Shown here one piece after another: positions 3,723 to 31,497 of a DNA stretch of 35,326 nucleotides. Where the stretch lies: assembly GCA_902634795.1 (NCBI GenBank), contig CACPLK010000008.1:1-35326 (forward strand). The letters run 5' to 3'. Source of the DNA: an uncultured Prochlorococcus sp. (GTDB lineage Bacteria; Cyanobacteriota; Cyanobacteriia; PCC-6307; Cyanobiaceae). The notes under the pieces were generated by a model that was given only the letters and a program-made list of their open reading frames with translations, searched no databases and was not told where the DNA came from. Position numbers and translations under genes: made by a program. The first letter of the stretch is position 1; every line of letters starts with the position of its first letter.

Positions 3723-5357
3723 ATGCCTCAAAATAAACCTCCTATTCTCTTGAAAAACCCTCCTGCATCTATGCCGGCAGCGGGTACAAAAGATTATGAA
3801 TTGCTTTTAGAAGAAACAGGTGGTGCTGCAGCTAATGAAGGGTTTAACTACGAATTACATATTGCTGCAACTCGACCAAAATCTGACCCAACTCCAACGC
3901 CCGAACCAACTCCAAAGGCAAAGGACCCAATGGTTCGAGTCTATATTTCTGAAGTAGAAAGTGGAAATGAATTAATTACACCACAGAAAGGAACACTTGC
4001 TTATCAACAACTTTTAGAAGAAACAGATGGTGCTGCAGCTAATGAAGGGTTTAACTATGAAGCTCATTTAGCTGCAACTGGACAAGTTCTATTCGCAGAT
4101 GATGATCCACGATCCAGCCAATATGCTGATACTCCAGGATATGCAGGAAATAGGGCTAACCAGGATGATCTTTTATATATGCCAAATATTGATAACTCTA
4201 CTCCTGACCCAACTCCAACGCCCGAACCAACTCCAAAGGCAAAGGACCCAATGGTTCGAGTCTATATTTCTGAAGTAGAAAGTGGAAATGAATTAATTAC
4301 ACCACAGAAAGGAACACTTGCTTATCAACAACTTTTAGAAGAAACAGATGGTGCTGCAGCTAATGAAGGGTTTAACTATGAAGCTCATTTAGCTGCAACT
4401 GGACAAGTTCTATTCGCAGATGATGATCCACGATCCAGCCAATATGCTGATACTCCAGGATATGCAGGAAATAGGGCTAACCAGGATGATCTTTTATATA
4501 TGCCAAATATTGTGCAGGAAGACACAAAGACAGATACACCAAAAGAGAATAAACCACTTATCTATGAAGGGACAGATGCGTTAGGCAACACAATTGCACC
4601 AGTTTATTTACTTAAGGCTCCTACAGAAATGCCTAAAAAGGGGACAGAAGAATATGAATTACTAGAAAAAGAGATTGGCACTGAAATTCCTGAAGGATTT
4701 AATTATATAGCTCATATAGCAGCTACTCGTAAACCAAAAGATTATCCAGATTGGCTCGATCCAGTAGTCGATATTGATGATCGTTGGGTTGACCCTAGCA
4801 AGCTAAATACATCTAAAACTTATGAAAAAGAATTAGAAGAATACTCGTTCTTCAGAAGAAGTGATGGATCCATTGAAATCAAAACAGAAGAAGGTTTTGA
4901 TGAAATCACTGGTATCCCAAAACTTCAATTTGCAGATAAAGCTGTGAGTGCCATTGCTGAAATAGAAGCAACCTTTGATCAAATCAAAGCAAAAGACGAT
5001 GTCACAGGAAAAATGTTCCGCGTTTATAACGCTGCCTTCAATCGATTCCCTGATTCAGATGGACTTGAGTACTGGATTGAAAAAAATGGATCAGGAGAAA
5101 ACACAGAAAGGCAAGTAGCAGAGTCATTCTTAGCCTCAAATGAATTCAAAGAAAAATATGGAGAAGATGTCTCAAATGAACAATATGTGAAAACGCTTTA
5201 TCAAAATATTCTTGATAGAGAACCAGATCTAGAGGGATATAACTACTGGGTTGGACAACTCAAAAATGGAATTGAAGATAGAAGTGAATTACTTTTAGGG
5301 TTTGCAGAATCCACTGAGAACCAGACCCTTTTCAGTGAGGTTACAGGTTTATACTGA
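3723..5357 (+). CDS. Repeat protein with C-terminal DUF4214-like domain
   Basis: 544-aa ORF; four copies of a LLEETxGAAANEGFNYExHxAAT-type module and C-terminal VYNAAFNRFPDSDGLEYWIE...LYQNILDREPDLEGYNYWVGQL. Confidence 0.75.
   Translation: MPQNKPPILLKNPPASMPAAGTKDYELLLEETGGAAANEGFNYELHIAATRPKSDPTPTPEPTPKAKDPMVRVYISEVESGNELITPQKGTLAYQQLLEETDGAAANEGFNYEAHLAATGQVLFADDDPRSSQYADTPGYAGNRANQDDLLYMPNIDNSTPDPTPTPEPTPKAKDPMVRVYISEVESGNELITPQKGTLAYQQLLEETDGAAANEGFNYEAHLAATGQVLFADDDPRSSQYADTPGYAGNRANQDDLLYMPNIVQEDTKTDTPKENKPLIYEGTDALGNTIAPVYLLKAPTEMPKKGTEEYELLEKEIGTEIPEGFNYIAHIAATRKPKDYPDWLDPVVDIDDRWVDPSKLNTSKTYEKELEEYSFFRRSDGSIEIKTEEGFDEITGIPKLQFADKAVSAIAEIEATFDQIKAKDDVTGKMFRVYNAAFNRFPDSDGLEYWIEKNGSGENTERQVAESFLASNEFKEKYGEDVSNEQYVKTLYQNILDREPDLEGYNYWVGQLKNGIEDRSELLLGFAESTENQTLFSEVTGLY
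3883..4513. repeat. Exact in-frame tandem duplication, period 321 bp (107 codons)
   Basis: ctgacccaactccaacgcccgaa...ttatatatgccaaatattg at 3883 and again at 4204, no differences seen over about 310 bp. Confidence 0.9.
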
Positions 5358-5458: not shown

Positions 5459-5564
5459 TCACACTTTTAAAAAATCTACATCACACTTAGGTCACACTTT
5501 CAAAGGTCCGTATTAAAGGCCCTTCAAATCCATTGATATAACTTATGTGTCTAGTATCACACTT
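5459..5564. promoter_or_regulatory. Outer cluster of phased TCACA(CTT) arm-like sites left of the left core
   Basis: TCACACTT at 5459, 5481, 5492 and 5557; spacings 22, 11, 65 bp. Confidence 0.55.
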
Positions 5565-5590
5565 TAGGTCGTATAGGCACTATTGATACG
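5565..5590. repeat. Putative left att core: decoy of the argJ 3' end
   Basis: taggtcgtataggcactattgatacg versus argJ end taggtcgtgtagtcggcattgatatg (20/26); reverse complement reads KNIRINSAYTT-stop against ArgJ QYVHINADYTT-stop. Confidence 0.65.
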
Positions 5591-5656
5591 TATATTCTTG
5601 ATTCTTATTTCGTACATATAAATTACCCCTTTTATATCAGTACTTTTTAAGACTTT

Positions 5657-5699
5657 TCTTAGTCACAAGTTAGTCACAATACCTTTCATTTTAGTCACA
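5657..5699. promoter_or_regulatory. Left inner arm-like sites
   Basis: TAGTCACA at 5660, 5671 and 5692 (11- and 21-bp spacing); tcttagtcacaagttagtcaca (5657-5678) is identical to 13234-13255. Confidence 0.6.
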
Positions 5700-5816
5700 T
5701 TTCCTACCAGAGGAGAAAACTAAAAGATCACACTCCAGTCATTGCAGTTAATTACACACTGAAAGAAAAGGTTCGCATACAACAAGTAATCACAAAATGG
5801 TCACATCTTTAGAAAA

Positions 5817-6182
5817 GTGCGTATTAATAGAAAGCACTGTTCAAATCATCAAGTGAAAAAATACATTCTTCATTTAATACTTCTTACCAGTTGCATTGGA
5901 GGTGGAGTTCTTGCAGGACAAATGTTCCGTGCAGGAGGAAGTGGTAGTTCTTGTCCTTCAGGTAGTCAATATAAAGGGAATGGGTTTTGCAGTTCAAATG
6001 ACAATAAACAATTCTTTCGTGCTGGCGGCAGTGGTAGTTCTTGTCCTTCAGGTAGTCAGTACAAAGGGAGTGGGTTCTGCAAATCAAATGACTACAAACA
6101 ATTCTTCCCTGCAGGAGGGAGTGGATCCTCTTGCCCCTCTGGTAGTCAATACAAAGGGAATGGGTTCTGCCGAAGCAACTAA
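5817..6182 (+). CDS. Secreted-like small protein with three 30-aa cysteine-pair repeats
   Basis: GTG-start ORF, N-terminal hydrophobic segment (YILHLILLTSCIGGGVLAG) then 3 x F[R/P]AGGSGSSCPSGSQYKGxGFCxSN; 90-bp period at 5925, 6015, 6105. Confidence 0.75.
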   Translation: MRINRKHCSNHQVKKYILHLILLTSCIGGGVLAGQMFRAGGSGSSCPSGSQYKGNGFCSSNDNKQFFRAGGSGSSCPSGSQYKGSGFCKSNDYKQFFPAGGSGSSCPSGSQYKGNGFCRSN

Positions 6183-6185
6183 GTT

Positions 6186-6443
6186 CTAGCAATCTGTCTG
6201 GAGATCTGCTCTAACCCTTTCTGCTAAATAATCAGGAAGACTTTTAAGACCACTCTCTAGACCTTCTTCGGTGATCTCATTATCTTTGTAGAGATTATGA
6301 AGAGCGTTCGCCAGCATGATATTGATACCTCCTTCTACTAATTGCTTCTTTGTTTTTTCCTCAAGAATTGCTGAAGCAACTACATCTAGTTTCCACGAGT
6401 ACTCATCTGTAAGACGGATATATTCTTCAGAGATCACCTTCAT
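6186..6443 (-). CDS. Hypothetical small protein
   Basis: 85-aa ORF whose ATG overlaps the stop of the upstream 41-aa ORF. Confidence 0.5.
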   Translation of the reverse strand: MKVISEEYIRLTDEYSWKLDVVASAILEEKTKKQLVEGGINIMLANALHNLYKDNEITEEGLESGLKSLPDYLAERVRADLQTDC

Positions 6444-6565
6444 TTTTTCTTCCCATATTCAGCACTTATTAAGTCACCTAAAAAATTCTCTGGTTTTTTC
6501 TTTGCCGCTTTTGAGAGTTCAATCAACATCTGGTAATAAACAGCACCCAATTTAACTTGTTTCAT
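6440..6565 (-). CDS. 41-aa hypothetical protein (not in ORF track)
   Basis: MKQVKLGAVYYQMLIELSKAAKKKPENFLGDLISAEYGKKK*, 4-bp overlap with the 6443 start. Confidence 0.55.
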   Translation of the reverse strand: MKQVKLGAVYYQMLIELSKAAKKKPENFLGDLISAEYGKKK

Positions 6566-6567
6566 AT

Positions 6568-6753
6568 TCACACCAATTGAAGTTTCGATTGTTGTCTGGC
6601 ATTGAAGTAGAACTTGATTGCATCCTTATGAACATCACTTCTACTCTTCCCCGTTTCATCCATTAACTGATGCTCAAGAGGAATGATCTTGCTTGTCTCT
6701 CCTTTTCGATAGTGACAACAGAAGGTTTGCTTTAGAGGTCTAAACTTCGCCAT
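6568..6753 (-). CDS. 61-aa hypothetical basic protein, possibly ribbon-helix-helix-like
   Basis: ORF immediately upstream of the 41-aa ORF, same strand (...LMDETGKSRSDVHKDAIKFYFNARQQ). Confidence 0.45.
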   Translation of the reverse strand: MAKFRPLKQTFCCHYRKGETSKIIPLEHQLMDETGKSRSDVHKDAIKFYFNARQQSKLQLV

Positions 6754-7211
6754 AGTTTCTGAATAGGTTCTATATGGATCGTGACTATTTAGGTTCTGGT
6801 GGGATTAAAAGAGTCTTATAGTCAACGCTCTTAAATAGCGAAAGGAAACAAAGACACCTACATTCTTTAGACCATTCTTTGATTGAATCCCTTCGGGATT
6901 GCTCACTTCGTTCGCCTTATCAGTTATTTGTTATTTAGTTGGTGAAAAACTAGATATAAAAACCCTTCAAACCTTACAAAGTTATTTATAAGTTTCTATA
7001 TTTTGACTCTATTCTTCCTATAGACACTTGAAAAAGTTTAGAGAACTTACGTGCATAAAATTTTCTGAAAAAATTTTTTAGGATTTTTATTAATATCAAG
7101 GAAATCTCCAATCGCTTAGATAAAGGTGCTTTTTTATATACGAGGATTAAACACTGCCACTAAGACATACAAAAGGGGGGTCGCTTAAAGTGTTCCTATG
7201 GTGTACATAAC

Positions 7212-7664
7212 TTGTTCACCATGACAACTTCCCAAAAAGTATTAAGACATCCAATTCATTTTGATCCTGAGAATTACAAGAATCGGGATTTCTCAGAAGA
7301 TTACGTAGTGGTAGAAGAAATCGCTGCTTTGATCTATGGATGTATTAAATCTGACTCTGAAGAAAGTGACGACTCATCTTTTGAGGTAGATGATTTTTTC
7401 TATGACATCATTTCAAATTTTGATCAATTCCATGATGAAGAAAGTGGTTGGTTTATTGAAGAAGATACCGATGAGAAGGATTCTTTAAGAGATGAAGTTT
7501 ATTTCCACATTGGATTAACAACAAACAGACTCACTGAAGAGGCAATCGAATATGCACAAGTCAATGGTGAATGGGATGGAGATATGGATCAGTATGTGAC
7601 TTGGGATGACCTAAAGAATTTGAAGTATTGGGATGCAATCTCCTTCTACCTTCCTCTCGAATAA
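7212..7664 (+). CDS. Hypothetical acidic protein
   Basis: 150-aa ORF, strongly acidic; terminator-like hairpin downstream. Confidence 0.6.
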   Translation: MFTMTTSQKVLRHPIHFDPENYKNRDFSEDYVVVEEIAALIYGCIKSDSEESDDSSFEVDDFFYDIISNFDQFHDEESGWFIEEDTDEKDSLRDEVYFHIGLTTNRLTEEAIEYAQVNGEWDGDMDQYVTWDDLKNLKYWDAISFYLPLE

Positions 7665-7708
7665 CAAAAGGGGAACTAAAAAACAGGATTAGCAGCAATG
7701 ATTTTTAT

Positions 7709-7739
7709 GGAGGGGTTTCTTGCCTCTCCTATTTTTTTT
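7709..7739 (+). terminator. Rho-independent-type terminator
   Basis: ggaggggtttcttgcctctcctatttttttt. Confidence 0.6.
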
Positions 7740-7805
7740 GCATCAGTCACATTGTTGGCATGGACTGTTTCTTTCCATGTTTTCCCACCCTGAAAATATG
7801 TAAGT

Positions 7806-7994
7806 TCAACCTTCATTTACTTTCGCTCTCAACTTGTAGAAGGTTTCTTCACAGCGACAAGTAACGCCCTTGAAACCTTTTGGAAAGGATTTCATAAAAC
7901 TAGGAATTGCCATCGTGACTGGATAACCACCTTTGATATGAAAGACAACCTCTTTCTTCTTTTCATCTATGAAATGAGGAGGGAGACTCATCAC
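7806..7994 (-). CDS. 62-aa hypothetical protein, paralogue of 7991-8242
   Basis: FIDEKKKEVVFHIKGGYPVTMAIPSFMKSFPKGFKGVTCRCEETFYKLR; 4-bp overlap with the upstream gene. Confidence 0.6.
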   Translation of the reverse strand: MMSLPPHFIDEKKKEVVFHIKGGYPVTMAIPSFMKSFPKGFKGVTCRCEETFYKLRAKVNEG

Positions 7995-8242
7995 ACTTGT
8001 CCTCGATATTTCTTGAACTCATCCAAGTCTCTGGTAACGATGCTCTTGTAATCATCAGGGAATCTTTCCTTCATTATTTTTGGAATTGCTAGACAAGTTG
8101 GATAAGGATTTTCCAGATAAAAAATAACTTCCTTCTCTTCCTTCAAAACGATGTAATCACCTAACCCGCCAATATTTTTTCTTTGCATACTGCTTCCTTT
8201 CGTCTTGCTCATACTGCTATCACCTTTCTTTTTTTTAGTCAT
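7991..8242 (-). CDS. 83-aa hypothetical protein
   Basis: YIVLKEEKEVIFYLENPYPTCLAIPKIMKERFPDDYKSIVTRDLDEFKKYR; 4-bp overlaps on both sides. Confidence 0.6.
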   Translation of the reverse strand: MTKKKKGDSSMSKTKGSSMQRKNIGGLGDYIVLKEEKEVIFYLENPYPTCLAIPKIMKERFPDDYKSIVTRDLDEFKKYRGQV

Positions 8243-8433
8243 GCTTTCTCCTTCTCTCCAAAATTAGGAACCATCAATACGTCATCTATCTCTTCGGAAA
8301 GAGGGTTATACATCCACTCACCCATCTCACACAAAAGATGAAACCTCTCTTCAGAGTTGAGGGATTTCATTTGCTCGCAAGCATTCACCACGCATTCATC
8401 CATTGCTTTCATTATTTCTGTCTTCTTGCTCAT
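8239..8433 (-). CDS. 64-aa hypothetical protein
   Basis: ORF overlapping the resolvase stop by 4 bp. Confidence 0.55.
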   Translation of the reverse strand: MSKKTEIMKAMDECVVNACEQMKSLNSEERFHLLCEMGEWMYNPLSEEIDDVLMVPNFGEKEKA

Positions 8434-9065
8434 ACTTCTATCACCACATCTTGCTCAACAATAATTCTTCTAATGGTTGATAAAGCAAGTCCAGTTTGTT
8501 TTCTAATTGAACGGTAAGAACAACCTTCTTTTCTTAAACGTAAAACCAAACCTTCTTTCTCATCATTTGTCTTTGGTCTGCCTCCAAGATTTCCACCTGT
8601 CTCCCTCCTGTGGTTAATACTCTCTTGAGTTCTCTCTATAACCATCTGACGCTCTACTTCTCCTAGTCCAGATAAAAGACCAATAACGATAGGAGCAAAC
8701 TTTCCAAGAGCACGAGTATTGATCATGCCATCGGTTGTACGAACATGAATCCCTTTTTCTTGAAGGTCATGAAGGGTATTGATGCACTGCCTCTGATTTC
8801 TAAATCCTCTATCCAATTTGGTGAATACGATTTCATCCCCTTCCTCAAGAGTTCCTAATGCTGCCTCGAATTGTGGTCTTGATTTATCTGCACTTGAAAC
8901 AGTCTCCTGAAAAACAACAACGCAACCTGCCTTCTTTAACTCTTCAACTTGAGCACCAATAGAGATTTGTTTATTCGTACTTTGGCGGGCATAACCGATG
9001 CATTTGTATTCAGGTCGATCTCTGAATAGTGGTTTTTCTCTTTGGAACTTTGCTTGTGTTTTCAT
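8430..9065 (-). CDS. Serine recombinase (resolvase/invertase family)
   Basis: GYARQSTNKQISIGAQVEELKKAGC...SRPQFEAALGTLEEGDEIVFTKLDRGFRN..HDLQEKGIHVRTTDG...GLGEVERQMVIERTQE...GGRPK plus C-terminal HTH. Confidence 0.92.
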   Translation of the reverse strand: MKTQAKFQREKPLFRDRPEYKCIGYARQSTNKQISIGAQVEELKKAGCVVVFQETVSSADKSRPQFEAALGTLEEGDEIVFTKLDRGFRNQRQCINTLHDLQEKGIHVRTTDGMINTRALGKFAPIVIGLLSGLGEVERQMVIERTQESINHRRETGGNLGGRPKTNDEKEGLVLRLRKEGCSYRSIRKQTGLALSTIRRIIVEQDVVIEV

Positions 9066-9292
9066 CTGTTCCAGAAACTATGGTGTTTCTTATTAAATTA
9101 CTTATGTCATTATTTTATCAACAAAACAGTGTTATTGGAACGCAGAGAACCAAGTATCCTGTAATTTTTAATGATTTTAATTTTACTGAATGATCGTTTG
9201 TATACCGTGCCCTTTTTGGAACACCAGTTTTTCTGATATTTAAGAGAATATTTCTATTGCTACCAATTTTGTATTTGGTGCATTAGAAAGGA

Positions 9293-9355
9293 TATACAGA
9301 ACAACTCCTCACACATAGTTCTGTACCAAAAGGGCATCCAATAGGGTGCTTTTTT
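9293..9355 (+). ncRNA. yfr1: Yfr1-like sRNA (copy 1)
   Basis: ACTCCTCACAC (9304-9314) in the loop of hairpin acagaac/gttctgt, followed by terminator gcatccaatagggtgcttttttag. Confidence 0.8.
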
Positions 9356-9445
9356 AGTGCCTTTTTTTCAAGTATTGGCACATGTGACAGTTGAGAAACT
9401 CATCTGATAAACCTTGAGTGCTCTAATTGCTTATAATAATTTCCA

Positions 9446-9542
9446 TATGTGAGGAGTTGAGATCCTCCGTAGTGGAAACAAGGAAACACTTACGCCTGAT
9501 CTCACGAAGAAACCGTCCAAACAGAACTGGGCGGTTTTTTTG
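9446..9542 (+). ncRNA. yfr2: Yfr2-like sRNA (copy 1)
   Basis: GTGAGGAGT (antisense to the Yfr1 motif), GAGATC..GATCTC stem, loop GGAAACAAGGAAACAC, terminator aaccgtcc..gggcggtttttt; -10-like tataat at 9432. Confidence 0.8.
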
Positions 9543-9548
9543 TGCCTA

Positions 9549-9692
9549 TTAATCCTCATACCCAATATTGTTTTCAGGATCAGTAATAAAGAGAATTAGT
9601 TGAAAGACTAGGTTTGCAGGCAATGAAAGTTTTTTAAGAAGTAACAAGGTCATGCCCTGTGTCACATTGAAATTCTCTTTTCTCTTACTCAT
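9549..9692 (-). CDS. Hypothetical small protein
   Basis: MSKRKENFNVTQGMTLLLLKKLSLPANLVFQLILFITDPENNIGYED; start chosen at the internal Met. Confidence 0.45.
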   Translation of the reverse strand: MSKRKENFNVTQGMTLLLLKKLSLPANLVFQLILFITDPENNIGYED

Positions 9693-9885
9693 ATTGTTTT
9701 TCCCAAAAAAGATAGAGGTTCGAGAATTGTTTGCTCGTATCAACAACAGCAGTACTGGTAGAAACTAATTTCCATCCCAATGAATTTCTTTTTTTGATTA
9801 TTTCTCCAATTTCAGTTTCCTGCCTAGAAGTATTGGTGTTTCCGACTGCATAGTAAATATCAAGATCATTTTCAGTTTTTGCCAT
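9685..9885 (-). CDS. Small protein resembling DUF4177-type folds
   Basis: MAKTENDLDIYYAVGNTNTSRQETEIGEIIKKRNSLGWKLVSTSTAVVDTSKQFSNLYLFWEKQYE, with an xLGWxLVSxS..LYLFWEK pattern. Confidence 0.5.
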   Translation of the reverse strand: MAKTENDLDIYYAVGNTNTSRQETEIGEIIKKRNSLGWKLVSTSTAVVDTSKQFSNLYLFWEKQYE

Positions 9886-10007
9886 AAGAGCAATTCAGAT
9901 ACTTCTAAAGATAATCAACTAAACAATAATTCTGTTAGCAAAGGGAGGCACTCAAGGTCGCTGAAGCAGCAGGGTCACTTTCTTAATACCATTGTTAATT
10001 AGTTAAA

Positions 10008-10178
10008 TCAGTCTCCTTTATCGTGAATATCTCCTGAATAAGATTGAGTTCCTATCTCTGGTGGTGAATTATTTCCGAAGTCATCTACTAAAGCATCTGC
10101 CTCGCTAGTAAAAAGTTTGGTGAACCATTGTCTAGTGGCAATGATTGCTGTCCAAATCTTGTCTCTTTTTCTAGTCAT
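10008..10178 (-). CDS. Hypothetical small protein
   Basis: MTRKRDKIWTAIIATRQWFTKLFTSEADALVDDFGNNSPPEIGTQSYSGDIHDKGD; longer ORF start rejected because it spans a hairpin. Confidence 0.4.
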   Translation of the reverse strand: MTRKRDKIWTAIIATRQWFTKLFTSEADALVDDFGNNSPPEIGTQSYSGDIHDKGD

Positions 10179-10198
10179 AGAGATACCTCCAATGAAGT

Positions 10199-10224
10199 AA
10201 GGGGGCATGTGTTTGCCCCCTTCG
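10199..10224. terminator. Strong GC hairpin
   Basis: aagggggcatgtgtttgccccctt. Confidence 0.5.
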
Positions 10225-10502
10225 AGTCCATCACCCCAGAGATAGAAGTGTTTTGACTCCTGATCTTGTTTTACTCCTCTTAAATGGAAATTCATAGGGG
10301 TGAGAACACCAAGGTATTTCTACATTTGGGTTCTCTGCATAGAGATTTTTGATTAGTGGGAGTATATATAAATCAAGAGTCATAGCACTCTCGAAGATAT
10401 AAAAAAGGGGATCTGTGCATTGACTCTAGGGAGGAATCTCATACCTCCTTTTGTGAACAGAGAACACTTTTCGTGCGGTCTCTGCAATGGTCGGAACAAC
10501 CC

Positions 10503-10534
10503 CAACCCCTGATTCATTTCAGGGGTTTTCTTTT
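10503..10534 (+). terminator. Terminator hairpin
   Basis: acccctgattcatttcaggggttttctttt. Confidence 0.65.
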
Positions 10535-10632
10535 GAGGGCAATGAGCGTTAATACTTTAGGGTTTTTATCCTATAGATATTTTCAATTAGGAGGAGTAGA
10601 CATAAATCAAGGCACTATTAGGAGGTCAAACC

Positions 10633-10818
10633 ATGTCATGCGGCAATCCTTTTAAACATGCAATCGAAGACGTAAAGGAAACATTCTCGAAATCTTGTGG
10701 AATTCCTGTCCAAGGAAACGATTGGTGTGGTCTGGTTTCTAATTATGAAACTGATTTTGATGAGGTCGATTACGAGAATGAGTGTTTGCAGTTTGGAATC
10801 TGCTCAATGGACTACTAA
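10633..10818 (+). CDS. 61-aa cysteine-containing hypothetical protein
   Basis: MSCGNPFKHAIEDVKETFSKSCGIPVQGNDWCG... preceded by aggaggtcaaacc. Confidence 0.5.
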   Translation: MSCGNPFKHAIEDVKETFSKSCGIPVQGNDWCGLVSNYETDFDEVDYENECLQFGICSMDY

Positions 10819-10847
10819 AAAACATTGAATTCACAGGAGGACTAATC

Positions 10848-10982
10848 ATGCAAGCAACCCGTGGTTTCAGATCTAATGGGTCGAATACTCTTTCATCGCT
10901 CTTTCTTTGGGTTTCTGTTCTTTTAATTTCCTTGGGAATGCTCCCACACCTAATCCCTTACTATTTTCAATTGAAATATTGA
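10848..10982 (+). CDS. 44-aa single-TM small protein
   Basis: MQATRGFRSNGSNTLSSLFLWVSVLLISLGMLPHLIPYYFQLKY with caggagg ribosome-binding site. Confidence 0.5.
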   Translation: MQATRGFRSNGSNTLSSLFLWVSVLLISLGMLPHLIPYYFQLKY

Positions 10983-11190
10983 GGTATAAAAAATGATTCT
11001 TGATCTGCTTCAATTAATTTTCAGAAAGCACAAAGATTATTGGGTCGTTGGTTAAACAGGAGTTTTTTCTCATGTTCATCTGATCCAGATTTGTTAGAAA
11101 TGAATTAGGAGTTCTAGCACTTCCGTTCCCGCAGGTGGTTGGTTAGTAAAGGTTTGAATGTTCAGGCGGATACAAAAGTGCTGAACTCAA

Positions 11191-11220
11191 AAGGGGCGAC
11201 CAAAATCTCGCCCCTTCTTA
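11191..11220 (+). terminator. Terminator hairpin
   Basis: aaggggcgaccaaaatctcgccccttctt. Confidence 0.7.
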
Positions 11221-11259
11221 ATGAGAAAAAATAAGCACCTTGACTTACTAGACAAATAC

Positions 11260-11273
11260 AGTACGTTTGTACT
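11260..11273. promoter_or_regulatory. Putative LexA box
   Basis: AGTACGTTTGTACT matches the described cyanobacterial consensus RGTACNNNDGTWCB, inside a larger inverted repeat 11247-11276. Confidence 0.6.
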
Positions 11274-11301
11274 AGTTTAATCCCCATCACAAACGCAAAA
11301 G

Positions 11302-11331
11302 GAGGATCCAGTGAGCAGGATCCTTTTTTTG
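11302..11331 (+). terminator. Terminator hairpin
   Basis: aggatccagtgagcaggatccttttttt. Confidence 0.65.
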
Positions 11332-11351
11332 TCTTCTACATGAGGAGGACT

Positions 11352-11636
11352 ATGGCATGGTCAAAGAAAGCAAGATTCTTATCACCTGTAGAGGTTCTGG
11401 AGAACCCTGAAGAGTGGGACTACTTCACTGACTTGGAACTTATGAAGTCCAGAGGTAGTTCGATTTGTATGACATGCGAACACTTCACTTACACCTGTGA
11501 TAAGTCATGCGTCACTCTTCTAACTTGTCCTTTTCATCAGCGTCTTATTCCTCAAGGTGAACACCTAACCAAGCGTTGTAGAAATTGGCAGCGAAAGAGA
11601 GTCCTCGATATCGGTCTGTGTCCTGAAGTTGCCTAG
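11352..11636 (+). CDS. Cys-rich small conserved-type hypothetical protein
   Basis: MAWSKKARFLSPVEVLENPEEWDYFTDLELMKSRGSSICMTCEHFTYTCDKSCVTLLTCPFHQRLIPQGEHLTKRC...; ggagg upstream. Confidence 0.65.
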   Translation: MAWSKKARFLSPVEVLENPEEWDYFTDLELMKSRGSSICMTCEHFTYTCDKSCVTLLTCPFHQRLIPQGEHLTKRCRNWQRKRVLDIGLCPEVA

Positions 11637-11665
11637 CAACCCACAAAATTATTTTCTAAAAACCA

Positions 11666-11899
11666 ATGAACTTAACTACAAATGCTGATCGGGTAATGAT
11701 GTTTTGCATCCTCGCCTCAATAGCAATCCTTGATGCTTTTTCAACTCTTCTTTCCATATTTAAGAAAGGAGTATTTGTCGATCAGAAGTCACTGCTGATG
11801 CAAAAGACCAATAGAGAATTAAGGGCAATGCTGATTGGTGTAGAAAAAATATCCAAACTGAATAAAGAACAATTAGTTGAATTGGTATTAGTCCAGTAG
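11666..11899 (+). CDS. Small protein, TM segment plus Rho-N/SAP-like C-terminus
   Basis: 77-aa ORF ending NRELRAMLIGVEKISKLNKEQLVELVLVQ; stop overlaps the convergent integrase 3' end by 12 bp. Confidence 0.5.
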   Translation: MNLTTNADRVMMFCILASIAILDAFSTLLSIFKKGVFVDQKSLLMQKTNRELRAMLIGVEKISKLNKEQLVELVLVQ

Positions 11900-13210
11900 A
11901 GGTTCATAGACCTCGGTGTTCTTAGCAAAGAAGGTTCTCCCTTTACTCAGGTCTGTTGTAGATAGTTCTGCTTCATGGTGGTAGTAGAACGCCTCGATGT
12001 AACGCAATCCAGTACCAGCATTACGTGCAAGTTTGAGATGGTTTACGCCTCTCTGAACAGCAAAAGAAATCCCACTGTGGCGAAAACTGTAATAGGAGAT
12101 GTTCTTCTTATTCATCCAGTCGCCACCTGCTTCTATGACACGATCTTTAATCTCTCTCCAGCATCGATTCCAAGTACCAAGACCAAAGGGTTGATCTCCC
12201 TTCTGTTCTTTACAAAAGACATATTGATCTTTATAGGCGTTAGGAATATGAGGAAAATTTTTACCTGCCTTTGGGATGCCAGACAAAACTCTCAAACGAT
12301 CAAACCAAACTTGAGTTGGTGAATTAACTCTTCTAGGTTTTCCAGTTTTCGTTGTTTCACCCCTGATATTGATTAGATGATGAATCTGACGATCTTCTCC
12401 TTTCAGATGAGGGTTATGTTCTATGTCTGACCATTTTAATTGCTTTAATTCTCCGATCCTGATTGCAGAATTAATCATGATGACTATCCCGCAGTACACA
12501 ACATTTCTGTTGTAGATCATTCGAGAAGTGGTTGTTTTATCTTTGCGATAGGCATTGAGAGTAGGAAGCATCGACTTCCATTCAGCAAGAGTTAAATAAT
12601 CCCTTCTTAAGTCCTCGGGTGCTTCAGTCTTCATTGACTTAATAGGAGGGACTTGATCTATCCATTCATTTGTATAGAGGTAAGTAAACAGTGATCTGAT
12701 CGTCGAGATCTCAGCATTGATAGTGTGATTGGTCTTTGGTGGGGTAGAACTATCCTTTTGTCGCCATGTTCCATAGTTGTACAAAGAACGCCTATCAAGA
12801 CTTTCTAACTTGGGATTACGACCATCAAAAAACTCTTGCAACCAACGAAGATGTACCCGCTTAATGCGGAAGGTTTCCTTTGTAATTCCTTTTCTAGGAA
12901 CACTACTAATACGCTTGCTTTCTTCTTCTAAAAACTCTTCAGCAAAGTCAAATAACTTTTTCTCTCTTTTGACTTTAAGACCACTCCTTTGCCTTCCTTG
13001 AATTTCATACCATCGTTCTCTCGCATAAGTCAGTGCCTCTTCTTGATCTTCTTGCTTAGTACTTTCTCGAATCACTCCTTCATTTTCCGTCTTGATATAT
13101 AACTGCCACTTCTTTGTCTTAGGTCTTTTGTAGATATATGTCCGCTTCTCTCCATCAAAAACATCTATTGGTTCTGAAACCCAAGATCCACTTTCACGAG
13201 CGCGAGGCAT
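11888..13210 (-). CDS. Tyrosine recombinase / integrase
   Basis: 440-aa ORF with INSAIRIGELKQLKWSDI, YYSFRHSGISFAVQRG and C-terminal GTGLRYIEAFYYHH; long N-terminal region before the catalytic domain. Confidence 0.92.
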   Translation of the reverse strand: MPRARESGSWVSEPIDVFDGEKRTYIYKRPKTKKWQLYIKTENEGVIRESTKQEDQEEALTYARERWYEIQGRQRSGLKVKREKKLFDFAEEFLEEESKRISSVPRKGITKETFRIKRVHLRWLQEFFDGRNPKLESLDRRSLYNYGTWRQKDSSTPPKTNHTINAEISTIRSLFTYLYTNEWIDQVPPIKSMKTEAPEDLRRDYLTLAEWKSMLPTLNAYRKDKTTTSRMIYNRNVVYCGIVIMINSAIRIGELKQLKWSDIEHNPHLKGEDRQIHHLINIRGETTKTGKPRRVNSPTQVWFDRLRVLSGIPKAGKNFPHIPNAYKDQYVFCKEQKGDQPFGLGTWNRCWREIKDRVIEAGGDWMNKKNISYYSFRHSGISFAVQRGVNHLKLARNAGTGLRYIEAFYYHHEAELSTTDLSKGRTFFAKNTEVYEPLLD

Positions 13211-13233
13211 CAGAATCGACCAACTTGCTTTTT

Positions 13234-13255
13234 ATCTTAGTCACAAGTTAGTCAC
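13234..13255. promoter_or_regulatory. Right inner arm-like sites
   Basis: tcttagtcacaagttagtcaca identical to 5657-5678; TCACA at 13240, 13251 and core-proximal 13317. Confidence 0.6.
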
Positions 13256-13325
13256 ACTATCAAATTTAGACTACAAATTATACAATAATATCAGTTATAT
13301 TAAGGTATCTTGGTTGTCACAGAAA

Positions 13326-14588
13326 CTAGGTCGTGTAGTCGGCATTGATATGAACATACTGATCTGACAAATCACACCCCCAAGCAGTAGCCGAGCCTTT
13401 TCCTATACCTATTCTTAATCTTATACATATCAGATCATCGGTCAAATATTTCCCTTTTAATCTTGCTTTCATAAAGTTGCTAACTATTTGTCTATCAAAA
13501 TCATGAGGTGTTCCATTAGAAAATATTTCATAAGGTCCAATCCATAACTGTACATCATTGAAATTAAAAGGAGTACCTGCACGACCAAGAGCAGCAATAA
13601 TTCTTCCCCAATTAGGGTCTGAACCATGAACTGCGGTTTTCACCAAAGAAGATGAAGCAATAGTACGAGCTATTGCATGAGCATCTAAATCACTTGGAGC
13701 ACCCTCAACTTTTATCTCAAGCAAACAATTAGCCCCTTCTCCATCCCTTGCGATTGATTTTGCCAGATATTGAGCTGTTAAATGAAGCCCTTCTTCAAGA
13801 GTTGATAAATCTCTTGGATCTAATTCGGCTCCAGAAGAAAAAGCTAAAAAAGTATCATTTGTACTCGTATCTCCATCAACTGTAATGGAATTAAAAGATG
13901 ATTCTGCAACACGCTTTATCATATCTGACCATAAAACATGATTTACGCCTACATCACAAGTAATATAACTCAACATTGTTGCCATTGAGGGATGGATCAT
14001 ACCTGAACCTTTCGCCATTCCTCCAATAGATATTCGTCTTCCTCCTAAAACTGCTTGATATGCAATTTGCTTGACCTGAAGATCAGTTGTCAAAATTGCA
14101 TTTGCTGCATCCAGATATGACTCCTTATCTAAACTATTTACAAGTTGATCCAAGTGACTACTAACTTTTTCAACAGGTATTGGTTCTCCAATCACACCCG
14201 TGGAACAGATCAAAACTTCTTCATTAGATAATTTCAAACGTTGAGCAAGCTCATTTGTAATGATTTCACTATCAATTTTGCCTCTACTACCTGTACAAGC
14301 ATTTGCGTGTCCAGAGTTGATCACTACAGCCCGTATTTTTCCCTTAGATGCCTTAATTCGATTAATACATAGATCAACACAATAAGCACGAGTAACTGAT
14401 TGAGTAAATGTCCCACTGCAACAAGCACCATCAGGGGCATATAGCAAAGCAAGATCTTTCTTCCCGGAAGGCTTCAATCCTGCGGAAATGCCAGCTGCTA
14501 AAAAACCATCAGGGGTAGTAATACCACCAGATATTGGAGACCATACAGAAGATGTCAAAAGACTCAAATTCAGAAGAGCATTTTTCAC
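13326..14588 (-). CDS. argJ: Glutamate N-acetyltransferase / amino-acid acetyltransferase ArgJ
   Basis: IRAVVINSGHANACTG, GGMAKGSGMIHPSMATMLSYITCD, C-terminal HINADYTT. Confidence 0.95.
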   Translation of the reverse strand: MKNALLNLSLLTSSVWSPISGGITTPDGFLAAGISAGLKPSGKKDLALLYAPDGACCSGTFTQSVTRAYCVDLCINRIKASKGKIRAVVINSGHANACTGSRGKIDSEIITNELAQRLKLSNEEVLICSTGVIGEPIPVEKVSSHLDQLVNSLDKESYLDAANAILTTDLQVKQIAYQAVLGGRRISIGGMAKGSGMIHPSMATMLSYITCDVGVNHVLWSDMIKRVAESSFNSITVDGDTSTNDTFLAFSSGAELDPRDLSTLEEGLHLTAQYLAKSIARDGEGANCLLEIKVEGAPSDLDAHAIARTIASSSLVKTAVHGSDPNWGRIIAALGRAGTPFNFNDVQLWIGPYEIFSNGTPHDFDRQIVSNFMKARLKGKYLTDDLICIRLRIGIGKGSATAWGCDLSDQYVHINADYTT

Positions 14589-31316: not shown

Positions 31317-31401
31317 GACTGGTTGTCGAATTGTCACATGTGACAGTCAATGAACCCCCATGCTCATATTTGAGTTTCCCATTAGGTGAGCAATGATATG
31401 G

Positions 31402-31497
31402 TTGTGAGGAGTTGAGATCCTCCGCAGTGGAAACAAGGAAACACTTGCGCCTGATCTCTCAAAAACCGTCTTGTTAAGAACTAGGCGGTTTTTTTAT
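31402..31497 (+). ncRNA. yfr2: Yfr2-like sRNA (copy 2)
   Basis: gtgaggagttgagatcctccgcagtggaaacaaggaaacacttgcgcctgatctc plus terminator aaccgtct..aggcggttttttt. Confidence 0.8.

Follow-up and report, generated by a model that had tools for sequence, protein, structure and literature searches.

A tyrosine recombinase element at the 3' end of argJ in Prochlorococcus and the use of the same site across the family

The window, meaning the whole 35,326-nucleotide stretch of DNA analysed here (contig CACPLK010000008.1 of an uncultured Prochlorococcus sp.), very probably contains a site-specifically integrated element of ~7.76 kb at the 3' end of argJ, with an integrase from a clade dedicated to argJ and with the same site in use throughout the family. 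The source assembly is fragmented (genome 1.1 Mb, 61%-complete), with the window as one of its contigs. Among the named genomes of the collection, its nearest kin are Prochlorococcus sp. AG-402-P16 (G016) and AH-324-J21 (G040); genome size and kinship suggest an LLI-like strain. An earlier note on this DNA, made from the sequence alone, proposed an integrative element with the argJ 3' end as its attachment site. Comparisons of empty and occupied sites, a profile of argJ ends and the phylogeny of the integrase all bear out this proposal.

Two copies of the argJ end bound the element

The host gene argJ occupies positions 13326-14588 on the minus strand (Pfam ArgJ, E 9e-134) and is detected in 34 of 41 same-genus genomes. 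Its final eight codons and stop form the proximal attachment copy (13326-13352, minus strand), which scores 40.1 on a 27-nt profile built on the argJ ends of 33 same-genus genomes. The distal copy, a displaced argJ end marking the element boundary, lies at 5564-5590 on the minus strand with a score of 21.7; the element size is measured from the argJ 3' end to this copy. The imperfect direct repeat reported earlier is confirmed, the 26-mers at 5565-5590 and 13327-13352 being identical at 20 of 26 positions. Translated in the frame of argJ, the distal 26-mer reads R-I-N-S-A-Y-T-T-stop, with the YTT-stop ending that had been described. Besides the argJ end itself, the distal copy is the sole site in the window scoring above 12. 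No site above 12 occurs in 4 Mb of random (order-1 Markov) sequence, and a chance match was therefore rejected as the source of the distal repeat. The version AATAGTG in this copy resembles the high-light-type argJ end AATAGCGAATATAC; the other degenerate copy is the distal end of locus L085.

The sequence to the left of the distal copy reads CTATACGACCTAAAGTGTGAT. In a relative lacking the element (G037), the sequence left of 5564 adjoins argJ directly, with 83% identity over ~200 nt, versus 51% for the control, which is the DNA next to argJ in the window itself. The same integrase is present in G040, whose sequence is shared with the window as far as 5582 and divergent beyond. In G016, the element opens with AGCATCAACGCCGACTACACGACCTAG within an array while the intact argJ sits on another contig, so the element carries an argJ end of its own. 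A Synechococcus-like genus provides a second pair, with an empty site in G127 and an occupied one in G268, where the far side shows the displaced native argJ end followed by native downstream DNA. The search for empty sites suggested in the earlier note thus found them in both genera. That note recognised no tRNA gene, and none was found in the window, so an overlooked tRNA target was rejected.

Ancestry of the attachment copies switches inside one 8-mer

Seventy attachment copies were sorted by their downstream DNA (the element arm) and by their upstream DNA (host argJ or the preceding element). Pairs sharing an arm with different upstream DNA agree from position 15 of the 27-mer onward, whereas pairs sharing upstream DNA with different arms agree through position 14 and diverge from position 15. 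For same-arm versus same-upstream pairs, the agreement is 0.87 vs 0.49 at position 15 and 0.78 vs 0.21 at position 21. Positions 7-14, corresponding to AATGCCGA, are almost invariant, even in copies coding for nothing. The ancestry switch between positions 6 and 15 points to exchange inside AATGCCGA, which would lie at 13339-13346 of the window, over the Asn-Ala-Asp codons. With exchange at this place, the incoming element would supply TAY-ACN-ACN-stop and the C terminus of ArgJ would be kept. This mapping, together with the element-borne argJ end in G016, agrees with the earlier suggestion that integration preserves the essential gene.

The integrases at argJ form a single clade

The element encodes a tyrosine recombinase of 440 aa (11888-13210, minus strand; PHROG integrase, E 4e-27), whose start is 115 bp from the argJ stop, as the earlier note had it. 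Residues R251, K288, R377 and Y409 are conserved and, in nearly all rows of the alignment, coincide with those of canonical recombinases. The histidine of the Leu-Gly-His box is replaced by Thr400 in all rows of the argJ clade and by Thr or Ser in the sister group, indicating a lineage variant at a variable position and not a core requirement. Of 12 clade members, 9 match Phage_integrase with E <= 0.001.

In 400 genomes of the family, an argJ-end copy lies 137-236 nt upstream of each of the 23 fetched full-length integrase hits. In two split hits the copy immediately precedes the gene, the shift seen in L218 resulting from a contig end, and five integrase fragments lack a copy. With three further relatives and three integrases from arrays, the full-length and split hits make up the intact argJ-adjacent set, and a copy stands beside the start in 31 of 31 examined. 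These 31 form one group (support 96/92; 0 of 500 shuffles as low), with some long outgroup branches. The integrase homologues, which the earlier note had proposed to look for next to argJ, are thus found beside argJ-end copies, as one clade. None of eight sister recombinases (L229, L230, L233-L236, L238, L239) has an argJ-end copy nearby. Some sister-clade recombinases have 11-bp paired repeats upstream. An extension of the argJ dedication to the wider recombinase family was rejected, these eight more distant relatives without a nearby argJ-end copy being kept out of the clade.

The integrase gene is 97-98% identical at the nucleotide level in G016 and G040, but argJ is only 86% (G016) and 85% (G040) identical, so the element has moved between species recently.

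Paired arm-type sites accompany the core

Inside both ends of the element, TTAGTCACAAGTTAGTCACA is repeated at 5659-5678 and 13237-13256, within a surrounding 28-nt repeat of 93% identity. This direct repeat is the best preserved in the element and was tried as the core attachment site, but it lies inside both ends, and it was therefore assigned to the arm-type sites. The proximal pair consists of two copies of TGTGACTAA 11 bp apart (13237-13256, minus strand) and is identical in G016 and G040. The distal arm-type sites (5659-5699, minus strand) number three, two of them forming a TGTGACTAA pair (5659-5678) and the last lying at 5691-5699, and are the same in G040. The next cassette has a different pair, AAAGTGTGACCTAAGTGTGA (5481-5500, minus strand), and the same arm directly follows argJ in G037.

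This layout recurs across the sampled loci. In 54 of 79 left arms, a 9-mer recurs (at least 8/9 matching) with a spacing of exactly 11 bp, against 0.6 expected after shuffling, and no 9-mer repeats at other spacings from 8 to 15 bp occur in these 79 arms. The distance from the stop to the pair beyond it is 44-48 or 63-70 nt, and in many elements the arm motif is repeated at the opposite end. On the integrase side, 24 of 25 loci have a pair (at least 7/9) in or close to the expected position, at a distance from the core of 69-83 nt or, once more, of ~135 nt. The arm sequences on this side vary by integrase: TGTGACTAA in the window, GGTAACA in G005 and GCTACCG in G036. The arrangement is that of the attP of a heterobivalent integrase, with binding itself presumed from the layout.

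The site is a hotspot across the genus and family

At least two argJ-end copies (score at least 19) are present downstream of argJ in 22 of 34 same-genus genomes, the window genome included, with a maximum of six; the counts cover the fetched stretch downstream of argJ, and several of the remaining genomes stop at a contig edge. Over 485 kb, 79 hits of at least 12 lie on the plus strand, argJ itself accounting for 33, against 7 on the minus strand, with ~0 expected by chance. All 7 minus-strand hits fall within inverted arrays. Copies inverted relative to argJ or to integrases were seen in L057 (G002) and L071 (G036:C14), which suggests local inversion of array segments.

With a degenerate form of the pattern, multiple close copies are detected in many other genera among the 400 family genomes, while the reversed control is near zero. 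G092 has five copies in 4 kb. In genus g18, which we take from its genome size to be high-light Prochlorococcus, the argJ end encodes Asn-Ser-Glu-Tyr-Thr-Thr, and G057 of this genus has three copies of that version.

Most modules lack a recognised integrase

A recognised integrase is present in only 5 of 21 modules with the same arm motif at both ends. The cargo includes cyanate lyase (147 aa), a HupE/UreJ-type protein, a 5-methylcytosine methylase, type I restriction-modification, a PD-(D/E)XK nuclease with DUF4379, and DUF4214 proteins; surface proteins, for example, are also described among it. Between hosts, cyanate lyase cassettes show 95-98% identity across 1.0-1.3 kb, compared with mostly 89-92% for argJ (95% in one pair), and HupE cassettes reach 99.5% versus 90% for argJ. 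In the sample, neither the arm motif of the cyanate lyase cassettes nor that of the HupE cassettes is seen with an integrase. A 1.28-kb cassette with cyanate lyase and without its own integrase, in most cases bounded by argJ-end copies, was observed at L055:248-691, L078, L054 ~6461-7771, L057, L061 and L088.

Further genes of the element and its neighbour

The element also contains a 98-aa open reading frame (ORF) without a Pfam match (11340-11636, plus strand), which is conserved in sister elements at 91-93% nucleotide identity in G040/G016 and 87% in G027. A Cyano-1 small RNA gene is located at 9443-9507 (plus strand; Rfam RF01701, 59.5 bits). A second Cyano-1 (RF01701) gene is present in the window at 31398-31462 (plus strand), and the sister elements in G040 and G027 likewise carry one. 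The argJ mRNA is reported as a target of Yfr1 in MED4 (PMC6778093).

A small serine recombinase of resolvase/invertase type (211 aa; 8430-9065, minus strand) matches Pfam Resolvase at 1e-27 and a PHROG DNA invertase. Such recombinases recur with integrases in many argJ-site elements from Prochlorococcus to Synechococcus-like genomes (L085, L068, L136, L140, L144, L148). Two further minus-strand element genes are an 83-aa ORF (7991-8242; 94% nucleotide identity in G016) and an 85-aa ORF (6186-6443; 93% in G040). On the plus strand are a 150-aa acidic ORF regarded as cargo, with no match in Pfam or PHROG (7212-7664), and a small Gly/Ser/Cys-rich protein with three 90-bp repeats (5817-6182; 95% nucleotide identity in the G040 element), which has a hydrophobic stretch at its N terminus.

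Beyond the distal boundary, a neighbouring integrase-less cassette carries a DUF4214 gene (3723-5357, plus strand; Pfam DUF4214, 1e-37), and a similar cassette directly follows argJ in G037 and G016. TPR-repeat genes with similar N termini lie near both contig ends (1267-1842 and 34538-35326).

Discussion

Sequence comparison shows the anatomy of the element, its boundaries, the empty sites, interspecies transfer, a single origin of the integrase clade and the position of exchange. In the proposed mechanism, the tyrosine recombinase would use the TGTGACTAA arm sites near both ends to recombine the argJ 3' end with the final argJ codons borne by the element. The strands would be exchanged inside AATGCCGA, with the Tyr-Thr-Thr-stop codons coming from the incoming element and ArgJ left unchanged. 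The displaced native argJ end would become the distal boundary and remain usable as an attachment site, so that elements would accumulate head to tail. Arm-site specificity would have diverged within the one clade of argJ-dedicated integrases, and integrase-less cassettes with matched arms would be moved in trans.

Several points weigh against this account. The source assembly is fragmented and 61%-complete. The window integrase falls below the Pfam Phage_integrase cut-off, at 18 vs 27 bits. The distal copy departs from AATGCCGA in both carriers that retain it, with AATAGTGC in the window and AATGCTAA in G040, and this mismatch within the exchange 8-mer may reflect decay or a tolerated mismatch. 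Excision is something we infer from sequence, as are the catalytic act and mobilisation in trans.

Tycheposons are described in a secondary source as elements 4-200 kb in size that use tRNA genes, with seven tRNA targets in Prochlorococcus (PMC10872708). An ordinary tycheposon switched from a tRNA target to argJ is an unlikely source. Tycheposons likewise are cargo elements with a tyrosine recombinase in the same hosts, and tandem accretion is common to both. However, they target tRNA genes according to the same source (PMC10872708), whereas the element described here targets a protein gene in a window without any tRNA, and its recombinase clade is separate from the other sampled tyrosine recombinases of the same genomes, which fall outside it on long branches.

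That the element is a defective prophage or a phage satellite with argJ as its chance target is quite improbable. The tyrosine integrase and the DNA-invertase-like recombinase would suit such an origin, but Pfam and PHROG searches of the element ORFs recognised no structural, packaging, lysis or phage-hijacking genes. The integrase has no match in phage records, and neither a relative of it nor the exact argJ-end pattern is found in viral contigs, on which grounds phage origin was rejected. It is hardly credible that the array is pseudogene debris, built up as argJ-end fragments were duplicated or underwent homologous recombination, and the integrase a passenger: the copies are short and imperfect and some integrases are fragments, but the copies end at the same 27 nt with the ancestry switch inside one 8-mer, the paired arms are element-specific and fixed in spacing, and every intact integrase adjoins a copy.

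For the integrated argJ element, the closest precedent is the integrase family of the dusA islands (PMC4482086). There, as here, one integrase family is tied to one protein gene, whose end is replaced by the island; the attachment repeats are imperfect and ~21 bp long, and the integrase is the sole feature common to all islands (PMC4482086). The dusA islands use the 5' end of their target, average 42.6 kb and occur in diverse bacterial hosts (PMC4482086). The argJ elements, in contrast, use the 3' end, measure ~0.8-12 kb, form long tandem arrays, are mostly integrase-less and belong to one cyanobacterial family. The argJ element shares two features of the dusA type, a clade tied to one gene (31/31, sisters 0/8) and the restored gene end.

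In the cassette arrays of integrons, small cassettes, mostly with one gene and no recombinase, are strung in tandem beside a fixed site. The argJ arrays resemble them in that small recombinase-less cassettes also stand in tandem next to a fixed site, but the argJ cassettes have two-armed, attP-like ends, the integrases lie inside elements and several arm specificities coexist. Neither an intI-attI platform nor folded attC sites were identified in the argJ arrays, although no dedicated integron search was made. Lambda-type heterobivalent integrases likewise combine a core with paired arm-type sites, and the lambda Int structures 1z19 and 1p7d give a weak profile match to the argJ integrase (E ~0.001). 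Unlike in the lambda type, Thr replaces the Gly-His histidine, and no excisionase is recognised among the element genes.

The argJ 3' end may serve as a cassette platform in marine picocyanobacteria, a proposal to which we give an even chance. Several related integrases with a common core and diverged arm recognition would each move a set of small integrase-less cassettes in trans (cyanate lyase, HupE/UreJ-type permease, restriction-modification, DUF4214), amounting to integron-like shuffling without an integron.

The earlier note's inference that argJ is a new integration target stands provisionally, its support being the lack of precedent in the open literature searched for argJ in connection with integrases, attB sites, integrative elements and genomic islands, since much subscription literature lies outside that scope. 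The literature searched on cyanate lyase islands yielded no argJ-attachment precedent either. A gene-dedicated integrase restoring the gene end is already known from dusA, while the argJ target, the family-wide array and the integrase-less cassettes are, provisionally, without precedent in this literature.

In conclusion, Prochlorococcus and Synechococcus are the ocean's most abundant photosynthetic cells, and the movement of their flexible genes is a long-standing question whose answers have so far centred on tRNA genes. A second gateway, based on a protein gene and family-wide, has precise boundaries, so that mobile cargo would be countable in genomes and metagenomes through its argJ-end punctuation. 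The defined attachment site and its integrases might serve the engineering of organisms that are hard to manipulate, and argJ cassette traffic would explain the patchy occurrence of single genes such as cyanate lyase.

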